The position numbers and the translations under genes were made by a program. DNA of 21,428 bases from the IMG/VR virus record IMGVR_UViG_3300048597_000112, positions 1 to 21,428 of that record. The stretch is one strand, 5' to 3'. The notes under the pieces are model-generated. The model made no database searches. It saw nothing but the letters and a program-made list of their open reading frames with translations, and was not told the DNA's origin. This document shows positions 3,273 through 18,794 of this stretch, piece after piece. The stretch's first letter is position 1; each line of letters starts with the position of its first letter. The stretch is from a virus.

Positions 3273-3517
3273 GCACCACCACCGAACTATGGAAGGCCCA
3301 GGGCAAGCTCGAGCAGCTCCGAGCCGAACACGCCAACGCCCTGATGCGAGCAACCGCAGAAGCCGAACTCAGCCGAGACCAGGCATGGCGTAAGCGCATC
3401 ATCGAGAAGGCCGCAAGCTGGGACCGGGCAGCACTAGGCCGCGACGATCAGGCGCAGATCAACCTCTGCCGGGCATTCGCACGGGAGCTGCGGGCGCTGG
3501 GGAGTCCTGAGACGTGA
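3269..3517 (+). CDS. Hypothetical coiled-coil-like protein (82 aa)
   Basis: ATG 3269 overlaps the previous stop. The first half (STTTELWKAQGKLEQLRAEH and ANALMRATAEAELSRDQAW) is a good candidate for a long amphipathic helix. The second half (LGRDDQAQINLCRAFARELR) is probably another. No family is recognised. The stop overlaps the GTG start of the next gene. Confidence 0.6.
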   Translation: MSTTTELWKAQGKLEQLRAEHANALMRATAEAELSRDQAWRKRIIEKAASWDRAALGRDDQAQINLCRAFARELRALGSPET

Positions 3518-4104
3518 AAGACCCGCTGGCCGGCTACCGCAAGGCAATCAACGAGCGCAAGGTGTCCGTCCTGCGCTACCCGGCATCAGAGCCCTGCCCC
3601 GTAGGTGAAGGGCAGTTCTACAAGCTCCAGTCCTGCGTTATCGAGATTGAACGCCCCCACCGCAAGATCGTCAAGGGCAAGCCCGCCGAATGGCACGTCA
3701 CGTTCATCCGCCACGAGCAGGACCGGGTGAACCTCCTGCGGCAGTCACCGCCGGTCCATGCCACGGGCGAACAGGACGCCAGCCTGAACATGACCCAGGC
3801 CGAACGGGCACGGCGCGACGGCAACTACACGTCCACGACCTACGCGGCCATGCCGCATGAGCCCGAGTCGGTCGGCCCTGACTGGCAGGACAAGGGCGCA
3901 GCCGAGCGCGAGCTGAAGCGGCAGGAGAGCAGGCGGGCGCTAAGGGCCGAACGGGACGCGCGTGACGCTGCCCGATTGGTCAAGGCCCAGGGCGCAAGGG
4001 TCATCCTCGAATCGGCCAAGATGGGCCGCGACATTACCCCGCTGCTGGCCGACATATTCGCGCGCCTCAAGCGCGAAGCCGACGAATTAGACAAAGCCGC
4101 TTGA
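3514..4104 (+). CDS. Hypothetical protein with helical C-terminal tail (196 aa)
   Basis: GTG 3514 overlaps the previous stop as GTGA. Residues 1-85 look like a mixed alpha/beta domain (KVSVLRYPASEPCPVGEGQF, WHVTFIRHEQDRVNLLRQSP). The pattern VGEGQFYKLQSCVIEIERPH suggests a small beta domain. Residues 130-196 are a long charged helix (ERELKRQESRRALRAERDAR) ending in GRDITPLLADIFARLKREAD. That last motif reappears in the small gene at 4283-4426. The TGA stop sits inside the candidate -35 of the downstream promoter. No function can be given. Confidence 0.7.
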   Translation: MKDPLAGYRKAINERKVSVLRYPASEPCPVGEGQFYKLQSCVIEIERPHRKIVKGKPAEWHVTFIRHEQDRVNLLRQSPPVHATGEQDASLNMTQAERARRDGNYTSTTYAAMPHEPESVGPDWQDKGAAERELKRQESRRALRAERDARDAARLVKAQGARVILESAKMGRDITPLLADIFARLKREADELDKAA

Positions 4105-4426: not shown

Positions 4427-4703
4427 TCAGCCGTATTTGACCCTCTGGGGCCGCCGGGCATTAAGTGCCCTGCGCGGAGAAGATGACTTCGAGCTGGGCG
4501 ATTGCCTCGCAAAGCTAACCGAGGCAGACTTTCGGTGCCTAGTGGACATCGCCGCCGATATGAACGGAGCGGGCGACCTGGCCGCGCTTCGTGAGTCGGC
4601 CAAGCAGTCGGCCCGTGAAAAGTGGGAGGAGGAGATGAACCGCACGGAAAGCTTCAGCCGGGTCATTCCCACGCGGGCCACCCTAGACCTGATCGGCTAC
4701 TAA
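4419..4703 (+). CDS. Hypothetical acidic protein (94 aa)
   Basis: GTG 4419 is preceded by AAGGAG at 4406-4411 with 7 bases of spacing. It overlaps the end of the gene before it, and no better in-frame start follows nearby. The product (MSSQPYLTLWGRRALSALRG, then LGDCLAKLTEADFRCLVDIA) is mostly helical. It ends with a charged helix (SAREKWEEEMNRTESFS) and a short tail, IPTRATLDLIGY. I recognise no family. It is the last gene before the noncoding island. Confidence 0.65.
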   Translation: MSSQPYLTLWGRRALSALRGEDDFELGDCLAKLTEADFRCLVDIAADMNGAGDLAALRESAKQSAREKWEEEMNRTESFSRVIPTRATLDLIGY

Positions 4704-4778
4704 TTAGCGTCCGACCCACCCCGTAATGTTCCGCATGCTGTTTGGGTTGTTCATGTGGTTCCTTTCATGGTGAGGTCA

Positions 4779-4830
4779 GAGGCGCCGCCGGTCTGCAGAG
4801 GTACCAAAGCCGGCGGCGCTTCACTTTTCT
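4779..4830 (+). terminator. Long GC hairpin with T-rich tail, terminator-like
   Basis: GAGGCGCCGCCGG at 4779-4791 pairs with CCGGCGGCGCTTC at 4810-4822: 13 pairs with one G-U. The 18-base loop contains the small palindromes TCTGCAGA and GGTACC. CTTTTCT at 4824-4830 follows. The stem is very stable but the loop is large, so it may work as a terminator or as a processing signal. It separates the gene ending at 4703 from the tRNA-like element that begins at 4833. Confidence 0.55.
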
Positions 4831-4832
4831 CC

Positions 4833-4910
4833 GGGGCCGATAGGCCGAGACAGACGGTAAAGCCGAAGCGCCCTGTCTGCACGTGGGTTCGACTCCCACC
4901 GGCTCCACCA
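4833..4910 (+). ncRNA. tRNA-like RNA resembling the tRNA-like domain of tmRNA, no anticodon arm
   Basis: GGGGCCG 4833-4839 pairs with CGGCTCC 4900-4906 as a 7-bp acceptor stem, followed by A73 and an encoded CCA (4908-4910). The third pair is G-U (G3-U70), the classic alanyl-tRNA synthetase signal, also found in tmRNA. The T arm is perfect: GTGGG 4883-4887, loop TTCGACT, CCCAC 4895-4899. No anticodon arm with a 7-base loop can be drawn in between. Instead CAGACGG 4851-4857 pairs with CTGTCTG 4873-4879 around a 15-base loop, and the D region has no stem. This is the layout of tmRNA (5' GGGGCYGAT, helix P2, T arm) but with the tag-coding body missing. Alternatives are a decayed tRNA, or an ssrA-derived attachment site. 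Confidence 0.6.
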
Positions 4911-4911
4911 C

Positions 4912-5053
4912 TTCACCAGCCGCTCCCTCCCGTGGCTACTGGTGAACACGCCGCCCGTGACGATGGCATCTACGGCCTAGCGAGGCGGCGAATCTTCCGA
5001 GCGTGGGCCTGCGCGGTCACGCTTCACACTTGAGAGTTGCGAGACGGGCTCAC
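4912..5053. other. Noncoding stretch with consecutive inverted repeats
   Basis: No credible gene is visible between 4911 and 5070. Three inverted repeats follow each other: TTCACCAG 4912-4919 with CTGGTGAA 4939-4946 (8 bp, perfect), CGCCGCC 4949-4955 with GGCGGCG 4984-4990 (7 bp, perfect), and GTGGGCC 5003-5009 with GGCTCAC 5047-5053 (7 bp, one G-U). They fill the space between the tRNA-like element and the three-way junction without overlapping each other. The whole span may be one long structured transcript. Short GC-rich arms arise easily by chance, so each alone is weak. Confidence 0.35.
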
Positions 5054-5070
5054 CACTAGGCGACTCCAAC

Positions 5071-5146
5071 GGCTAGGGCGCAGGGCCGCTCAGTCCGAGG
5101 GGCTGAGATGTGGGTCGTGGACCCACGCGGCCCTGCGCTTCTAGCC
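5071..5146. ncRNA. Three-way-junction fold (structured RNA or DNA element)
   Basis: Closing stem: GGCTAGGGCGCAGGGCCGC at 5071-5089 pairs with 5127-5146 over 19 pairs, with one G-U and a single bulged T at 5140. Inside are two hairpins: TCAGTCC 5090-5096, loop GAG, GGGCTGA 5100-5106 (7 pairs, one G-U); and GTGGGTC 5110-5116, loop GTG, GACCCAC 5120-5126 (7 perfect pairs). Only 3 bases join them. Almost every base in 76 is paired. No open frame is convincing here. The fold can be drawn on either strand, so transcription direction is not settled; the + strand fits its neighbours. Possible roles are a small RNA, a processing or packaging signal, or a replication site. Confidence 0.6.
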
Positions 5147-5154
5147 GCCCCACT

Positions 5155-5188
5155 TGCCCCGTCGCCCCATAGCTGACGGCGCGGGGCA
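5155..5188. repeat. Inverted repeat upstream of the gene at 5233
   Basis: TGCCCCG at 5155-5161 and CGGGGCA at 5182-5188 form 7 perfect pairs. The inner bases offer a competing helix of CCGTC 5159-5163 with GACGG 5175-5179. It lies 45 bases before the gene start, so it could belong to its 5' leader. There is no T tract, so it is not a terminator. Confidence 0.4.
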
Positions 5189-5232
5189 GGACTTACCGCA
5201 TCGCCCAACACACCCACCCACAAGGAGACACC

Positions 5233-5574
5233 ATGAGCAAGCCCAAATGGGGAACCCTGATAATGCTGCGCGGCAATCACACCTCGTTCGTGTCTGGCCG
5301 AACCGTATCCGAACTCGCAGACGAGATAGATGCGGTCGAGAACCCCCATGGCTTCTATTTCGTGCAAAGCAGCTACGTTGCGCCGGAAAACTGCAATCAC
5401 CTGGCCGTTCGCCCCGTAGATGTGGTTGCGCTCGTGGCCGTAGGCACACCGAACGAGCCCCAGGGTCACCCGACACGAGAGCAAGCCCACAATTCGACCG
5501 AGGCCGTCGCGTTGCTGAAGGACATGGTTGAGGGGGACATCGTTAGGCGACGGCCACAGAGGCTGCGCTACTAG
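5233..5574 (+). CDS. Conserved-looking hypothetical protein (113 aa)
   Basis: ATG 5233 follows AAGGAG at 5222-5227 with ideal spacing and is the first gene after the noncoding island. The product has an alpha/beta look: WGTLIMLRGNHTSFVSGRTV, a helix with ELADEIDAVEN, then GFYFVQSSYVAPENCNHLAV and a strand VVALVAVGTPNE. The last third is helical and basic (EAVALLKDMVEGDIVRRRPQ). I cannot name a family. Its position may link it to the RNA elements just upstream, but nothing in its sequence is a known RNA-binding motif. Confidence 0.7.
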   Translation: MSKPKWGTLIMLRGNHTSFVSGRTVSELADEIDAVENPHGFYFVQSSYVAPENCNHLAVRPVDVVALVAVGTPNEPQGHPTREQAHNSTEAVALLKDMVEGDIVRRRPQRLRY

Positions 5575-5873: not shown

Positions 5874-6154
5874 CCTACACACCGCGAAGGATAGGCAGGC
5901 CCGAGGGCTACCCCTTCACGGTGATGGACCCGAAAGACGCAACAGAGCGCAGGCGCTCACTCGCTGCCCTTGAACCCGAACCCCGTGCGGCCATGACCAT
6001 CAGCCTCCTGACGGGGCACACCCTGGACCAGACGCTATGGCAACTCAGGCAGCTCGAGATCCGGGGGCAAGTCAGGCACACCACGGACGAGGGCGGTGTC
6101 ATGCGGTGGGAGAGGCTGCCTGAGAACGGGTGGGAAGAGGACGCGCCGTTCTGA
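5870..6154 (+). CDS. Hypothetical protein, possible winged helix (94 aa)
   Basis: ATG 5870 overlaps the previous stop. After an N-terminal segment (TPRRIGRPEGYPFTVMDPKD) comes a helical region. The pattern MTISLLTGHTLDQTLWQLRQ is then followed by LEIRGQVRHTTDEGGVMRWE. The order helix, turn, helix and beta hairpin with a basic and charged wing resembles a winged helix-turn-helix DNA-binding domain. It could be a small regulator or a DNA-binding helper of the HNH protein encoded right after it. The stop overlaps the next ATG as TGATG. The fold is inferred from pattern only. Confidence 0.6.
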   Translation: MTYTPRRIGRPEGYPFTVMDPKDATERRRSLAALEPEPRAAMTISLLTGHTLDQTLWQLRQLEIRGQVRHTTDEGGVMRWERLPENGWEEDAPF

Positions 6155-6477
6155 TGCGAGCGCCGAAGGTCTGTAGCGACCCGCTCTGCCCCAACTCGCA
6201 GCCATGCCCCGACCACGAGCGCAAACCGTGGCAAGGCAGCAAGCGCAGGGAGCGGACGAAGCTCAGTGGGTACAAGCAGCAGAAGCGGGCGAAGTACGTC
6301 CTGCGGAGGCACGACACCATCTGCCATGTCTGCGGATACCCCGGCGCAACCGAGGCCGATCACGTCATCCCCCTGGCAGAGGGCGGGCCGGACACGCTGG
6401 GAAACCTGCGACCGATTCACCACGACTGCCACGTTCAGAAGACGGCAGAGGAGGCGGCGCGAGGTCGTCAACGGTGA
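6154..6477 (+). CDS. HNH endonuclease next to terminase (107 aa)
   Basis: ATG 6154 overlaps the previous stop. The HNH core is clear: CHVCG at 57-61, ADHVIPLAEGG with H70, GNLRPIHHDCH with N84 and H93. HNH proteins cut DNA using one metal ion held by these His and Asn residues. The N-terminal CSDPLCPNSQPCPDH (C7, C12, C18, H21) looks like an extra zinc site, which many HNH proteins of actinobacterial phages have. Phage HNH proteins next to terminase genes (HK97 gp74 is the studied case) work with terminase in cutting cos DNA. The gene order here, HNH then small and large terminase, fits that role. Confidence 0.9.
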   Translation: MRAPKVCSDPLCPNSQPCPDHERKPWQGSKRRERTKLSGYKQQKRAKYVLRRHDTICHVCGYPGATEADHVIPLAEGGPDTLGNLRPIHHDCHVQKTAEEAARGRQR

Positions 6478-6617: not shown

Positions 6618-7031
6618 ATGCCCGGACCAGCACCAGCAGAAAACAGAAGGCGGCGCAATGAGCCCGCCCGTGGCGATTGGGTAGACCTCCCGCCGATTGA
6701 CAAGCCCTACCTGCCCGAGCTCCCCGACCGGGAAGAGGGCTGGAAGCAGACCACCCGCGACACCTGGGATCTGTGGCGGCAAGACCCTGCCACCTCGCAA
6801 TACACCCCCGGCGAGATCGCTTACGCGCTTGACACCATCCGCCTCTACGACGCCATGACCTCATCGGGCGCAAACGAGGTCCGGCTGCGCATGGACGGCC
6901 TCGGCCTCACGCCGAAGGGCAAGCGCGACCTGCGCTACCGCGTTTCAGCCGACGATCAGCCCGCAGCACCCGAGGTCAAGCGGCGTAACCGGACGCACGG
7001 CCGGCGTAGTCGCCTCAGCGTCGTGAAGTAA
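6618..7031 (+). CDS. Terminase small subunit
   Basis: ATG 6618 has AAGGAGG at 6606-6612. The N-terminal motif MPGPAPAENRRRRNEPARGD, followed by a Pro-rich stretch with LPELPDREEGWKQTTRDTWD, matches the usual opening of small terminase subunits in actinobacterial phages. There, a basic PLP-type arm is followed by a helical core. Residues 55-115 are helical (EIAYALDTIRLYDAMTSSGA, LRMDGLGLTPKGKRDLRYRV). The C-terminal tail is basic (KRRNRTHGRRSRLSV). The subunit recognises the packaging site and loads the large subunit. Its stop overlaps the large-subunit start as TAATG, which supports the call. The length of 137 aa is typical. Confidence 0.82.
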   Translation: MPGPAPAENRRRRNEPARGDWVDLPPIDKPYLPELPDREEGWKQTTRDTWDLWRQDPATSQYTPGEIAYALDTIRLYDAMTSSGANEVRLRMDGLGLTPKGKRDLRYRVSADDQPAAPEVKRRNRTHGRRSRLSVVK

Positions 7032-8731
7032 TGCCCCTGCCGACTTCCCCGCTGCCCGAGGTGGACTTTCCCACGCTCGGCTGGCAGGTGGCCGACTGGA
7101 TTGAGACCTTTCTCTGTCACGGCCCCGGCGACGTCGAGGGCGATGACTTCGAGGTGGACGACGAAATCGCCACCTTCCTTGCCTGGTGTTACCGCGTTCA
7201 CCCGCAGGGATCGCCCAACGAAGGCAGGCGGCAGGTTCAGCGGGCGGTCTTCTCAAGGCCAAAGGGCCGCGCCAAGTCCGAAATTGCCGGTGCCGTTGTC
7301 TGTGCTGAGGCTTTGGGCCCGGTTCGGTTTGACCATTGGGCCGAAGAGGGCGAAGTCTCCGAATGGGGCTATGAGTTTCAGCCGGGAGAGCCCGTCGGCG
7401 TGTCCGTACGGTCGCCGTACATCCGTTGCCTTGCGACCGAAGAGGATCAGTCCGGCAACACCTACGACAACGTGGTGGTGATGCTCACGCAGGGCGCAAT
7501 TGCCGACCACCTGGGCCTGAAGATGGGCAAAGAGGTCGGCATCACCCGCGTCTTCCTGCCCGATGGCGGCGAGATCACCCCGTCCACGTCCTCGAGCGCG
7601 GCAAAGGATGGCGGCAAGGAAACCTTTGCGGTGGCAGACGAGACACACCTGTACACCACCGACCAGCTCCGCAAGATGTATCGCACCGTGGCCCGCAACA
7701 CCGGCAAGCGGAAAGAAGGCGAGCCGTGGATGCTGGACACCACGACCGCATGGCAGCCGGGGGAGCGGTCAATCGCAGAGCAGGCGTCCGACAAGTACCA
7801 GGGCAAGCCCGTTGCCGAGGCGGTCGAGAAGCTCGGCGTCCTGTACGACCACCGGCAGGCACCGGAGCCTAAGAAGTTCGGCATGGACACCTCGCTCATC
7901 AAGGCAATGCGGGAGGGCTACGGCCCCGCCGCCGACTGGATGGACTTTCCCCGGATCGTGCGCATCATCCGCGACGCGGAAGACCCGGAGGCCGAGGCGT
8001 ACCGCTACTGGCTGAACCGCCCCCGCCTGGCCGGTACTCAATGGCTCGGGCCGGATGAAATCGCCGCAGCGGTCGAGGAGCGCGACATTGCCACCGGCAC
8101 GGCCATCACCCTCGGTATTGACGCCTCCGAATACGACGACCACACGGCGCTCATCGGCTGTACCGAGGACGGGCACCTGTTTCCGGTCGGCATCTGGGGC
8201 AGGCCGGAGCATTGGCCGAAAGAGGAGCCGTGGTCGGTGCCGATGAATGAGGTTGACGGCGCGGTCCGCTTCGCATTCGACCAGTTCAACGTGGTCAGGC
8301 TGTACGCCGATCCGCCGATTCTGAACAACTCCCTGCTGCCGCATTGGGCCAGGGACTTCGGTGAGGCGCGGGTCAAAGAGTTCTGGACGAACGCCGACAC
8401 AAAGATGGCGGTGTCCACGGGCGCACTTCGCACGGCAATCCGGCAAGGCGCGGCCACACTCGGCCCGCAGGAGATTCGCACCACTAACGAGCCACGAAAC
8501 GGCTCCCCGCTGTTCCTCTGGCACCTCGAAAACGCCCGCACCCGCAAGGTGAAGGTTCGGCTAGAGGACAAAGCCGAAGAGGCGTACATCGTGACCAAAG
8601 AGCGTCCCGGCTCCCAAAAGAAGATCGACTCCGCAGCCGCAGCGGTGCTCGCATTCAGGGCCAGAAACGACGCGCTCGCCACGGGCGAGTTCAAGCGTAA
8701 GAAGAAGGGCCGACTGGTCACCTTCTCATAA
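7031..8731 (+). CDS. terL: Terminase large subunit
   Basis: This 566-aa protein is the ATP-driven motor and nuclease of DNA packaging. The ATPase half has a Walker A-like motif, SRPKGRAKSE, at 75-84, in the R-x-x-G-x-x-KS form common in phage terminases. Walker B is TFAVADETHLY with D203-E204. The C-terminal RNase H-like nuclease half has LGIDASEYDDHTAL with D364, RLYADPP with D427, and KIDSAAAAVLAF with D533, which would bind metal. The start overlaps the small-subunit stop, and the portal gene follows after 14 bases. Length and motif order are normal, so the gene looks intact. Confidence 0.95.
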   Translation: MPLPTSPLPEVDFPTLGWQVADWIETFLCHGPGDVEGDDFEVDDEIATFLAWCYRVHPQGSPNEGRRQVQRAVFSRPKGRAKSEIAGAVVCAEALGPVRFDHWAEEGEVSEWGYEFQPGEPVGVSVRSPYIRCLATEEDQSGNTYDNVVVMLTQGAIADHLGLKMGKEVGITRVFLPDGGEITPSTSSSAAKDGGKETFAVADETHLYTTDQLRKMYRTVARNTGKRKEGEPWMLDTTTAWQPGERSIAEQASDKYQGKPVAEAVEKLGVLYDHRQAPEPKKFGMDTSLIKAMREGYGPAADWMDFPRIVRIIRDAEDPEAEAYRYWLNRPRLAGTQWLGPDEIAAAVEERDIATGTAITLGIDASEYDDHTALIGCTEDGHLFPVGIWGRPEHWPKEEPWSVPMNEVDGAVRFAFDQFNVVRLYADPPILNNSLLPHWARDFGEARVKEFWTNADTKMAVSTGALRTAIRQGAATLGPQEIRTTNEPRNGSPLFLWHLENARTRKVKVRLEDKAEEAYIVTKERPGSQKKIDSAAAAVLAFRARNDALATGEFKRKKKGRLVTFS

Positions 8732-16095: not shown

Positions 16096-16806
16096 ATGCC
16101 ATTCACCCGCAGCTTTGAGTCCTACTCGCCGCCCCGCCGCTACGACGGTGCGCCTTTTACCTCGGCGCAGATCCGCGAGGCCGCGACCGAGACGGGCAGC
16201 TACACGACCATAGAGACGATCAACCTGTTTCCGGTTGACGCCGACCCCTCTAGTCCGGCGACCCGGAACTTCACGACTACCGCCGCAACCCTGACGGACG
16301 GCTGGTATGTCATCCGGTGGGTGGACGGCACGGGCTCGTCTTTCGACTCCGACCCGGTTCACTACATAACGGGCAGCGGAACGCCAGCACAGTTCGCAAC
16401 CGTCGAAGACGTAGCAACCCGGCAGGGTAAGACCCTCACCGAGGCCGAAGAGGAGTCGGTGGACTTTCTGCTAACGGTTGCCACCGCCGTCATCGCAGAC
16501 GCCGCAGGGAAAGACGACGCATGGGCCGCAGCACTTGACCCGGTGCCCACGATCCTCAAGGGGCTAACGGTGGAGCTGGTGGGTCGCGCATTCGCCAACC
16601 CGTCCGGCCTGACCAGCCTTCAGGAGCAGGTCGGCTCCTACCAGTACATGCAGAGCTTCAACCGCGACCTCCCCGCCGCCTTCGTCCTGACTGACATTGA
16701 GCGGCGCATCATTCGCAGGACGGTGGGCACGTTGAACTACGAGGTGAGGACTCCCACCAGCGCAGAGGAGTTCCTGGAGGAAGTGCTTGAAACTGAAGGG
16801 TCATAA
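16096..16806 (+). CDS. Head-tail connector (adaptor) with extra N-terminal beta domain (236 aa)
   Basis: ATG 16096 follows the previous stop directly. Residues of about 95-236 look like the helical adaptor that sits under the portal. They have the pattern ATVEDVATRQGKTLTEAEEE, then helices with VDFLLTVATAVIADAAG and ILKGLTVELVGRAFANPSG, and a C-terminal helix with LTDIERRIIRRTVGTLNYEV. This matches the gp6/gp15-like connector fold seen in actinobacterial phages. Residues 1-92 form a separate domain (FTSAQIREAATETGSYTTIE, then DGWYVIRWVDGTGSSFDSDP) that looks like a small beta sandwich. The combination suggests a decorated connector. The last 20 bases overlap the first sugar gene. Confidence 0.8.
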   Translation: MPFTRSFESYSPPRRYDGAPFTSAQIREAATETGSYTTIETINLFPVDADPSSPATRNFTTTAATLTDGWYVIRWVDGTGSSFDSDPVHYITGSGTPAQFATVEDVATRQGKTLTEAEEESVDFLLTVATAVIADAAGKDDAWAAALDPVPTILKGLTVELVGRAFANPSGLTSLQEQVGSYQYMQSFNRDLPAAFVLTDIERRIIRRTVGTLNYEVRTPTSAEEFLEEVLETEGS

Positions 16807-17449: not shown

Positions 17450-18033
17450 TCGGCACCTTTGGCGACGAGCAGTACCGGCGATGGGCAGAGGATAGGGCCA
17501 TCCCGTCCGTACCCGAGGGCATACCCGTAGTCCACGTCCACGGCGGCACCCTGGCCGAGTCACGAAACGCAGGGCTGGCGCAGGTGAAAACCGAGTGGGT
17601 CGTCTTCCTTGACGCCGACGACGAACTGGCACCGGGCTACATGGACGCAATGGCGACCGGCTCCGCAGACCTTCGAGCGCCGTCTGTCAGATACGTCAAG
17701 GGCAGGCGGACTCAAGACCCTTACGTCCCGAGGGTGGCCGGGCATGACCACGACTGTACGGGCGAATGCTTGCCGGAGGGCAACTGGCTGGTGATCGGTG
17801 CCGCCGCCCGGGCCGACCTCCTGCGAAGCGTTGGCGGGTTCCGTGAATGGGACTGCTACGAGGATTGGGACTTGTGGCTCCGGTGCTGGCTGGCCGGCGC
17901 GACCGTCGAGGCCATCCCCGCCGCCGAGTACATCGCCCACGTTCGGCCCGACTCTCGCAACCGCTCCAACTCCATGCGGTTCCGCAACCGGGTTCACGTC
18001 CAAATCATCGAGTCCGTAAAGGATCAACTGTGA
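17431..18033 (+). CDS. Glycosyltransferase family 2 (200 aa)
   Basis: TTG 17431 follows GAAGGAAG at 17421-17428 and lies inside the end of the gene before it. The product is a compact classic family 2 domain: VTVVVGTFGDEQYRRWAEDR, then GGTLAESRNAGLAQVKTEWV, then the DxD-type motif VFLDADDELAPGY with D61 and D63, and the catalytic-base region CYEDWDLWLRCWLAGATVEA. A CTGECLPEG loop with two Cys lies before the base. No membrane segment is seen, so it is soluble. Acceptor and donor cannot be read from sequence. Its stop overlaps the next start as GTGA. Confidence 0.9.
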   Translation: MEVTVVVGTFGDEQYRRWAEDRAIPSVPEGIPVVHVHGGTLAESRNAGLAQVKTEWVVFLDADDELAPGYMDAMATGSADLRAPSVRYVKGRRTQDPYVPRVAGHDHDCTGECLPEGNWLVIGAAARADLLRSVGGFREWDCYEDWDLWLRCWLAGATVEAIPAAEYIAHVRPDSRNRSNSMRFRNRVHVQIIESVKDQL

Positions 18034-18794
18034 ACGTCTACGTCACCGGCATAGCGGGCTTCATTGGCTCCACCGTTGCCGTCCAGCTCCGCGACCGGGG
18101 CCACAGCGTCACCGGATGCGACGACCTTTCGATGGGCCGGGTGTCTAACGTGCCCACGAGCATCTGGTGGAACGTCGAGGACATGCGGCGGCTGACCCAC
18201 ATTGACGCCGACGTGGTGCTTCACCTTGCGGCCATGTCATGCGCCCGATGGCCCGACGATAACGAGGTATGGCAGCGCAACCTCGCCGCCACCGCACACC
18301 TCGCGTCCATCTTCAAGGGCCGCGTCGTGTTCGCATCCACCTGCGTCGCGCCAAACCCGCTCCTTGGCGCATACGCCGGGTCGAAGTGGGCCTGCGAGAA
18401 GATTCTGCCCGCCGCCACCATCTGCCGATTCGCCAACGTCTACGGCCCACGGCAGCGCGATTGGGGGCCGGAGCCCGGCGTCCTGGCCGCGTGGAGGAGG
18501 GCCGAGCAGGCAGGGGAGCCGATCCGCATAGACGGCGACGGCTCACAGACCCGCGACTTCATTCACGTTGACGATGTTGCCCGCGCCCTTTGCCTTGCCG
18601 TTGAGTCCGACGCGGCAGACGGCCACACAATCGACATCTGTACCGGCGTTCAGACGCCTGTGATTGAGCTGGCCGACAGGTTTGATGCGCCCCGCACCTA
18701 CGCACCGCGCAACCCCGTAGACCCCGACTCCATGCCGCAAGACCCGGAACCAGCCAAGCGGCTGCTCGGGTTCGAGAGCGAGATCGCGCTGTGA
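18030..18794 (+). CDS. NAD-dependent sugar epimerase/dehydratase (extended SDR) (254 aa)
   Basis: GTG 18030 overlaps the previous stop and gives a start exactly at the first strand, VNVYVTGIAGFIGSTVAVQL. The glycine motif TGIAGFIG (residues 6-13) binds NAD. VVLHLAAMSCARWPD and RVVFASTCVAP follow, and the catalytic YAGSK has Y115 and K119. FANVYGPRQRDWGP and DGSQTRDFIHVDDVARALCL are typical of GalE-like epimerases and related dehydratases. The protein is shorter than usual GalE (about 330 aa), mainly at the C-terminus. It would make or alter a nucleotide sugar for the glycosyltransferases around it. An upstream extension in frame is open but would overlap the previous gene. Confidence 0.9.
   Translation: MNVYVTGIAGFIGSTVAVQLRDRGHSVTGCDDLSMGRVSNVPTSIWWNVEDMRRLTHIDADVVLHLAAMSCARWPDDNEVWQRNLAATAHLASIFKGRVVFASTCVAPNPLLGAYAGSKWACEKILPAATICRFANVYGPRQRDWGPEPGVLAAWRRAEQAGEPIRIDGDGSQTRDFIHVDDVARALCLAVESDAADGHTIDICTGVQTPVIELADRFDAPRTYAPRNPVDPDSMPQDPEPAKRLLGFESEIAL

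Follow-up and report, generated by a model that had tools for sequence, protein, structure and literature searches.

The window analysed here, a stretch of 21,428 nucleotides (positions 1 to 21,428 of IMG/VR virus record IMGVR_UViG_3300048597_000112), carries terminase and major head genes and, at positions 4833 to 4910 of its plus strand, an RNA element of 78 nucleotides. On the evidence of its sequence, this element is a phage-encoded transfer-messenger RNA (tmRNA) that has been reduced to the tRNA-like domain (TLD), with a single short capped hairpin in place of the tag-coding and pseudoknot body. The tmRNA (ssrA) is the ribosome-rescue RNA of bacteria, and the short form described here, referred to as mini-RNA, probably serves the phage to block this rescue or to turn it to its own use. 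Pattern searches suggest that it occurs in at least a hundred distinct phage sequences, in most of which it has gone unnoticed.

Anatomy and class of the mini-RNA

Read directly, the element consists of the segments GGGGCCG-ATAGGCCGAGA-CAGACGG-TAAAGCCGAAGCGCC-CTGTCTG-CAC-GTGGG-TTCGACT-CCCAC-CGGCTCC-A-CCA, which are assigned as follows.

4833-4910, plus strand: message-less (TLD-only) tmRNA, whole element including the encoded CCA (Rfam RF00023, 47.9 bits, E 2.4e-16; model R1, 71.2 bits, a score that is not independent because the window element is one of the 32 R1 seed sequences)
4833-4839, plus strand: 5' strand of the acceptor stem, GGGGCCG, with G3 at 4835; pairs with 4900-4906 and includes G3-U70
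4840-4850, plus strand: D-loop-like single strand ATAGGCCGAGA with the equivalents of G13G14 and G19 of tmRNA (family alignment)
4851-4857, plus strand: 5' strand of the inner (H2-like) helix, CAGACGG (double changes relative to the IMG/VR relative L089; family covariation)
4858-4872, plus strand: A-rich internal loop and short cap hairpin, TAAAGCCGAAGCGCC (family consensus AAAG-CCG-tetraloop-CGG-AA)
4873-4879, plus strand: 3' strand of the inner helix, CTGTCTG, complementary to 4851-4857
4880-4882, plus strand: linker CAC with an invariant A at 4881, the equivalent of A334 of Escherichia coli tmRNA (A in 32/32 aligned members)
4883-4899, plus strand: T arm GTGGG-TTCGACT-CCCAC with a perfect 5-bp stem (direct reading, fold and family alignment)
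4900-4907, plus strand: 3' strand of the acceptor stem, CGGCTCC, and A73 (direct reading and fold)
4908-4910, plus strand: encoded CCA (direct reading)

A first-pass annotation, made from the letters of the window, had described an acceptor stem with G3-U70, A73 and CCA, a T arm, and a 7-bp helix with a 15-base loop, and all of these are present. Its statement that a D stem and an anticodon arm are missing is borne out by folding, in which a single inner helix of 7 bp, with 15 bases in its loop, takes their place, and by ARAGORN, which called neither a tRNA nor a tmRNA in the window. The likeness to tmRNA that it had pointed out was recovered with the Rfam model as well: the match to RF00023 lies above the gathering score (47.9 bits against 47) and spans model positions 1 to 374, that is, from first to last, with the message and pseudoknot body deleted. 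With bacterial tmRNA, the element shares the acceptor stem with G3-U70, A73, the T arm, the D-loop-like GG...G19-A-C and the linker A334, and, at the level of sequence, the elbow contacted by SmpB (G13G14, G19 and A334) is there without a D stem. It differs in having no mRNA-like domain with a tag frame, no resume codon and no pseudoknots, a 15-nucleotide loop lying at the place of the body, and in its length of 78 nucleotides versus approximately 350.

Three other assignments were rejected. A canonical or D-armless tRNA, tRNA-Ala included, was ruled out since ARAGORN called none, neither a D stem nor an anticodon arm with a 7-nucleotide loop was found in the element by ARAGORN, folding or covariation, and the covariation describes one capped hairpin. 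A two-piece (permuted) tmRNA was ruled out since the acceptor halves lie within one short molecule and RF04321 scored just 19.9 bits, and an attP copy of the ssrA 3' end was ruled out since both acceptor halves are present, the inner helix co-evolves and an integrase was found in 5 of 37 carriers. The first-pass annotation had also placed the element outside any gene. Taken literally, this does not hold, as a 92-codon open reading frame (ORF) at 4755-5033 overlaps the element, but it stands insofar as no support was found for this ORF as a gene.

Folded as a single sequence, the region 4833-4910 is unremarkable (z -1.2, not significant alone), and hence comparative evidence was needed. In a first set of 32 sequences, two-sided changes were seen at 8/8 inner pairs, and the whole structure was 91.1% paired, compared with 46 to 58% when the partners were slid by one to three columns; the acceptor stem of this set was partly selected by the search pattern. 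In a second set, inner pairs 1 to 6 form in 66 to 80 of the 81 listed sequences, with shuffled-partner means of 34 to 39; here the inner helix was free in the pattern except for its first pair (C-G), which was fixed and left out of the counts. In the family consensus, a stem of approximately 8 bp is followed by an internal loop rich in A (AAAG) and by a cap, CCG/CGG, that carries a tetraloop; the 3' side has A(A/G). A subtype search for RNAs like that of the window returned nothing except L089, a 6.4-kb IMG/VR record, whose RNA aligns gap-free to the window RNA and differs from it at 18 of the 78 positions. Eleven of these differences lie in the arms of the inner helix, where five of seven pairs differ in both bases and a sixth in one base; pairing is retained in all seven. 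The compensatory changes that were to be looked for among relatives were thus found, with the paired bases conserved, and this covariation indicates that the element is selected as a structure, beyond what chance would produce. Two of the outcomes that the first-pass annotation had named as refuting, a canonical tRNA fold and a lack of conserved pairing among relatives, thus did not occur.

A family of mini-RNAs in phages

A pattern with tmRNA-type ends identified 12 loci in viral contigs. One of them (L045) lies within a full tmRNA and matches by chance, and another (L048) is uncertain; the others have the same architecture and perfect acceptor complementarity, and each of them attains the Rfam tmRNA threshold. 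This strict pattern, with a slightly narrower gap, gave a single match in 257 Gb of prokaryote genomes, on a contig of a metagenome-assembled genome (L161, JAHEYD010000013.1) that is binned with the archaeon Candidatus Nitrosotalea. This contig is probably misbinned phage DNA, since next to the mini-RNA it encodes a GH108 endolysin and an RNA ligase. A relaxed pattern returned, among the matches listed, at the least further members mixed with genuine tRNA-Ala genes. Phage tRNA-Ala with the anticodon TGC has the same acceptor and T-arm signature and was therefore also caught by this pattern, but it has an anticodon arm, whereas the window element has neither a D stem nor an anticodon. We noticed in addition that the tRNA-Ala(TGC)-like genes at L055, L067, L074, L086, L096, L102, L103, L109, L112 and L153 have an odd D-arm region (GGGGNNCATGTACCAAGG...), and some of these were not called by ARAGORN as excised sequences.

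Because the earlier patterns forced GGGG...CTCC and thereby the acceptor stem, a second, virus-wide pattern was used that imposed no more than TCGAC in the D-loop, GGA in the linker and a portion of the T arm, so that the acceptor stem and almost the whole inner helix could vary. It gave at least 99 distinct matches, among which 82 have a perfect 7-bp acceptor stem; one of these is a tRNA, and 81 remain. By a rough estimate, chance would produce a perfect 7-bp acceptor in approximately 2 of 100 matches at the 21 offsets tried. These family counts are lower bounds, and distinct sequences were counted because IMG/VR contigs may be redundant. The RF00023 cutoff is exceeded in 33 of 37 carrier records, and the family is nearly restricted to phages.

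Among the matches listed, the third acceptor pair is G-U in all 81 relatives with an unconstrained acceptor stem, while the fourth pair is variable (GC in 47, CG in 23, TA in 5, AT in 4 and GT in 2). A73 is present in 80/81 of them, and CCA is encoded in just 18/81. G3-U70 is the identity element for alanyl-tRNA synthetase (AlaRS), as stated for tmRNA (PMC8363625), and since it is strictly kept, alanine charging appears to be under selection. With regard to SmpB, cryo-electron microscopy of tmRNA places Trp122 of SmpB in a pocket of A15, U17 and A334; binding of SmpB depends on G19, and a ribosome-bound structure of a truncated tmRNA together with SmpB and EF-Tu has also been determined (PMC8363625). 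In the aligned mini-RNAs, the A334 equivalent is A in 32/32 and the G19 equivalent is kept in 27/32, neither being forced by the patterns; in the window element, G takes the place of U17. At the level of sequence, the known requirements for charging, SmpB binding and delivery are therefore mostly kept, and those for tagging are all gone. The suggestion of the first-pass annotation, a minimal tmRNA-like RNA that is perhaps charged with alanine or bound by SmpB or EF-Tu, gains support from both the alanine signal and the retained contact positions.

Several members are found in named phages. Model R1 detects members in the Streptomyces phages LuckySocke (record positions 17977-18054), GiJojo, Shaeky and Alone3, with a weak match in Microbacterium phage Franklin22, and RF00023 additionally matches Streptomyces phages pSt2308 and BRock. 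The fourth acceptor pair is U-A in LuckySocke, GiJojo and Alone3 and C-G in Franklin22, with G3-U70 kept. In these phages, the mini-RNAs sit unannotated in gaps of tRNA arrays, in GiJojo under a hypothetical-protein call; annotation tools overlook them because such tools are designed to find tRNAs, or tmRNAs that carry a tag. The cultivated Streptomyces phages are isolates in which direct tests can be made.

Proposed role and alternative explanations

We propose that the transcript would be trimmed at both ends by host tRNA-processing enzymes and that the mini-RNA, recognized through G3-U70, would receive alanine from host AlaRS. SmpB would bind it at the elbow of D-loop and linker, and EF-Tu would carry it to stalled ribosomes without an A-site codon, where it would compete with the host tmRNA. 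Being message-less, it would supply neither a tag nor a stop codon, so that trans-translation, with its tagging and degradation, would be blocked during infection. Among 39 phage records searched, including 37 carriers and many records that may be incomplete, none had an SmpB gene; a co-encoded phage SmpB was ruled out on this ground, and the SmpB used would be that of the host. For the window phage, we infer transcription, charging, SmpB binding and the resulting effect from sequence features. We consider it reasonably probable that the mini-RNA is an alanine-charged, SmpB-binding competitor of tmRNA that enters stalled ribosomes and is unable to tag. Competition with host tmRNA is the most likely role because the features for charging and SmpB binding are kept, the parts for tagging are gone, and an RNA similar to that of Mycobacterium phage DS6A is reported to inhibit tmRNA in E. 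coli.

DS6A has been described as having a TLD-only tmRNA (Mao et al. 2009), and a DS6A-like molecule is reported to inhibit the endogenous tmRNA in E. coli (PMC4131195; PMC11915505). Both DS6A and the window thus have a phage TLD-only tmRNA, a likeness that is drawn from the published description. DS6A is presented there as an isolated case; the present matches form a large and diverse phage family. In the literature searched, which did not include subscription journals and preprints, DS6A is the one published precedent for a message-less phage tmRNA, and the breadth of the family, the strict alanine signal and the conserved capped hairpin were not found there. Similar reductions exist in organelles: message-less mitochondrial tmRNAs (RF02544) are, as here, reduced to the tRNA-like part or lack the tag frame, and two Mallomonadaceae plastid tmRNAs of approximately 65 bp are likewise reduced (PMC11915505). 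These forms differ in being organellar rather than phage genes, and the capped inner hairpin is not established for them.

Several points weigh against the proposed competition. The expression, charging and binding of all members are predicted from sequence, and no sigma-70-like promoter lies directly upstream of the element in the window. Folded by itself, the L089 RNA has a minimum-energy structure other than the shared one; the alternative L089 helix is unable to form in full in the window sequence. No common neighbor gene that points to trans-translation was found among the carriers. The RNA was not found in the closest relatives by terminase whose upstream DNA is available (the record of L002, with a terminase 92% identical to that of the window, ends short of the RNA position upstream), and since these closer relatives lack it, the RNA is, as judged from their sequences, dispensable in the window lineage. 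Lastly, the inhibition by the DS6A-like molecule is reported to work irrespective of its ability to be charged (PMC4131195), and yet G3-U70 is strict in the family, which suggests that charging matters and hence that more is involved than a simple titration of SmpB. The strictness of this pair argues that the mini-RNA is charged in nature and enters the ribosome, and it leaves room for a role in tagless rescue. In such a role, the charged mini-RNA and SmpB would replace trans-translation, the stalled peptide would be moved onto the alanine, and ribosome and peptide would part untagged; phage proteins would be spared degradation, the cost of translating a tag would be saved, and repeated rounds could add untemplated alanines. 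The strict charging signal fits alanine as an acceptor better than it fits SmpB titration, and those message-less mitochondrial tmRNAs that are found together with SmpB are believed to assist where mRNAs are incomplete (PMC11915505). Furthermore, one phage record (L188, G047; 123.6 kb) has a mini-RNA at 46486-46567 and a full-length tmRNA at 77588-77979 (ARAGORN) adjoining a tRNA-Ile, so the roles of the two may differ. Set against this, peptide transfer is hypothetical, and the sole test reported, done with a DS6A-like molecule in E. coli, showed tmRNA inhibition that did not need charging (PMC4131195). That the family consists of alanine-charged, SmpB-guided tagless-rescue RNAs, with which phages reprogram rather than merely block rescue, is a tentative idea that we consider less likely than competition.

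Host tRNA-processing enzymes could cut the phage transcript at the element and so set mRNA ends and stability, and members are indeed found in many transcription units, including the gap between protease and capsid genes and tRNA arrays; but processing enzymes are not known to require the G3-U70 pair that is kept in every one of the 81 matches listed, the tmRNA D-loop-like motif and the linker A are kept as well, and an ordinary tRNA would do equally well, which makes a role mainly as a processing signal unlikely. We regard as more doubtful still an alanine-charged decoy that acts outside trans-translation, as bait or substrate for tRNA-targeting defenses or for enzymes that use Ala-tRNA. Some members lie within phage tRNA arrays, phage tRNAs have been proposed to evade tRNA-targeting defenses (PMC10264068), and anticodon nucleases could not cut a mini-RNA, as it has no anticodon; but such a decoy leaves the retention of tmRNA-specific SmpB-contact bases unexplained, and members also occur without a tRNA array, the window itself having no tRNA according to ARAGORN. 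Finally, the first-pass annotation had considered a decayed ssrA copy. Some phages do carry a 28- to 35-nucleotide piece that matches the ssrA 3' end, in some cases at integrase genes or annotated att sites. These pieces consist of the 3' end only, whereas the window element has both acceptor halves; its inner helix is maintained by compensatory change, also in the syntenic relative L089, which excludes decay; a tyrosine integrase was found in just 5 of 37 carriers, whose records may be incomplete; and DS6A integrates at tRNA-Lys and not at the tmRNA gene (PMC10865867). It is accordingly very improbable that the element is a remnant of host ssrA, be it a scar left by integration or a decayed copy, and this reading is rejected.

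If the proposed competition or tagless rescue holds, interference with ribosome rescue, or its reprogramming, would be a common phage strategy. In addition, the mini-RNAs are natural minimal substrates for studies of SmpB, AlaRS and EF-Tu.

Genomic context and neighboring structures

Two genes downstream of the RNA were of use in following it through the window lineage.

6130-6477, plus strand: HNH endonuclease gene, the next recognizable gene downstream of the RNA (PHROG 144)
7031-8731, plus strand: terminase large subunit, used for phage placement and for finding relatives (PHROG 9)

The order RNA, HNH (phrog_144), phrog_226 and terminase is common to the window and L089, where the portal gene comes next. 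L089 differs by an extra HNH gene in between, and its terminase is 30% identical to that of the window. As RNA and gene order are shared in spite of such distant terminases, these sequences indicate that the RNA has long held its position in the window lineage. In another relative (L004), the homologues of the window genes at 3514-4104 and 6130-6477 are approximately 550 bases apart, compared with approximately 2 kb in the window, and because of this shortened interval, the RNA-bearing segment behaves like an optional cassette.

Among the other carriers, a group of related phages (L218, L179, L197, L228 and approximately 14 more loci) has the mini-RNA between the genes for the head-maturation protease and the major capsid protein, and in others it lies near primase/helicase genes, terminase genes or tRNAs. 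A conserved protein partner adjoining the RNA was ruled out, as the neighbors differ between carrier groups.

The mini-RNA of the window is flanked by two strong GC hairpins on the plus strand. The one directly upstream (4779-4822, z -4.2) is followed by a T-rich stretch and was not called a terminator in a consensus scan; the one directly downstream lies at 4912-4946 (z -2.8). The same noncoding island contains a very stable RNA with a three-way junction at 5070-5147 (plus strand, -63.4 kcal/mol, z -6.5), for which no relatives turned up when 4700-5240 was compared with named phages in a distant search. Elsewhere on the plus strand, the region 16224-16269 weakly resembles the leader of actinobacterial ribosomal protein L31 (27.7 bits, short of the 35-bit threshold), and a small protein encoded at 86-412 matches profiles of the RIIB lysis inhibitor at their end (PHROG 609, E 1.8e-6).
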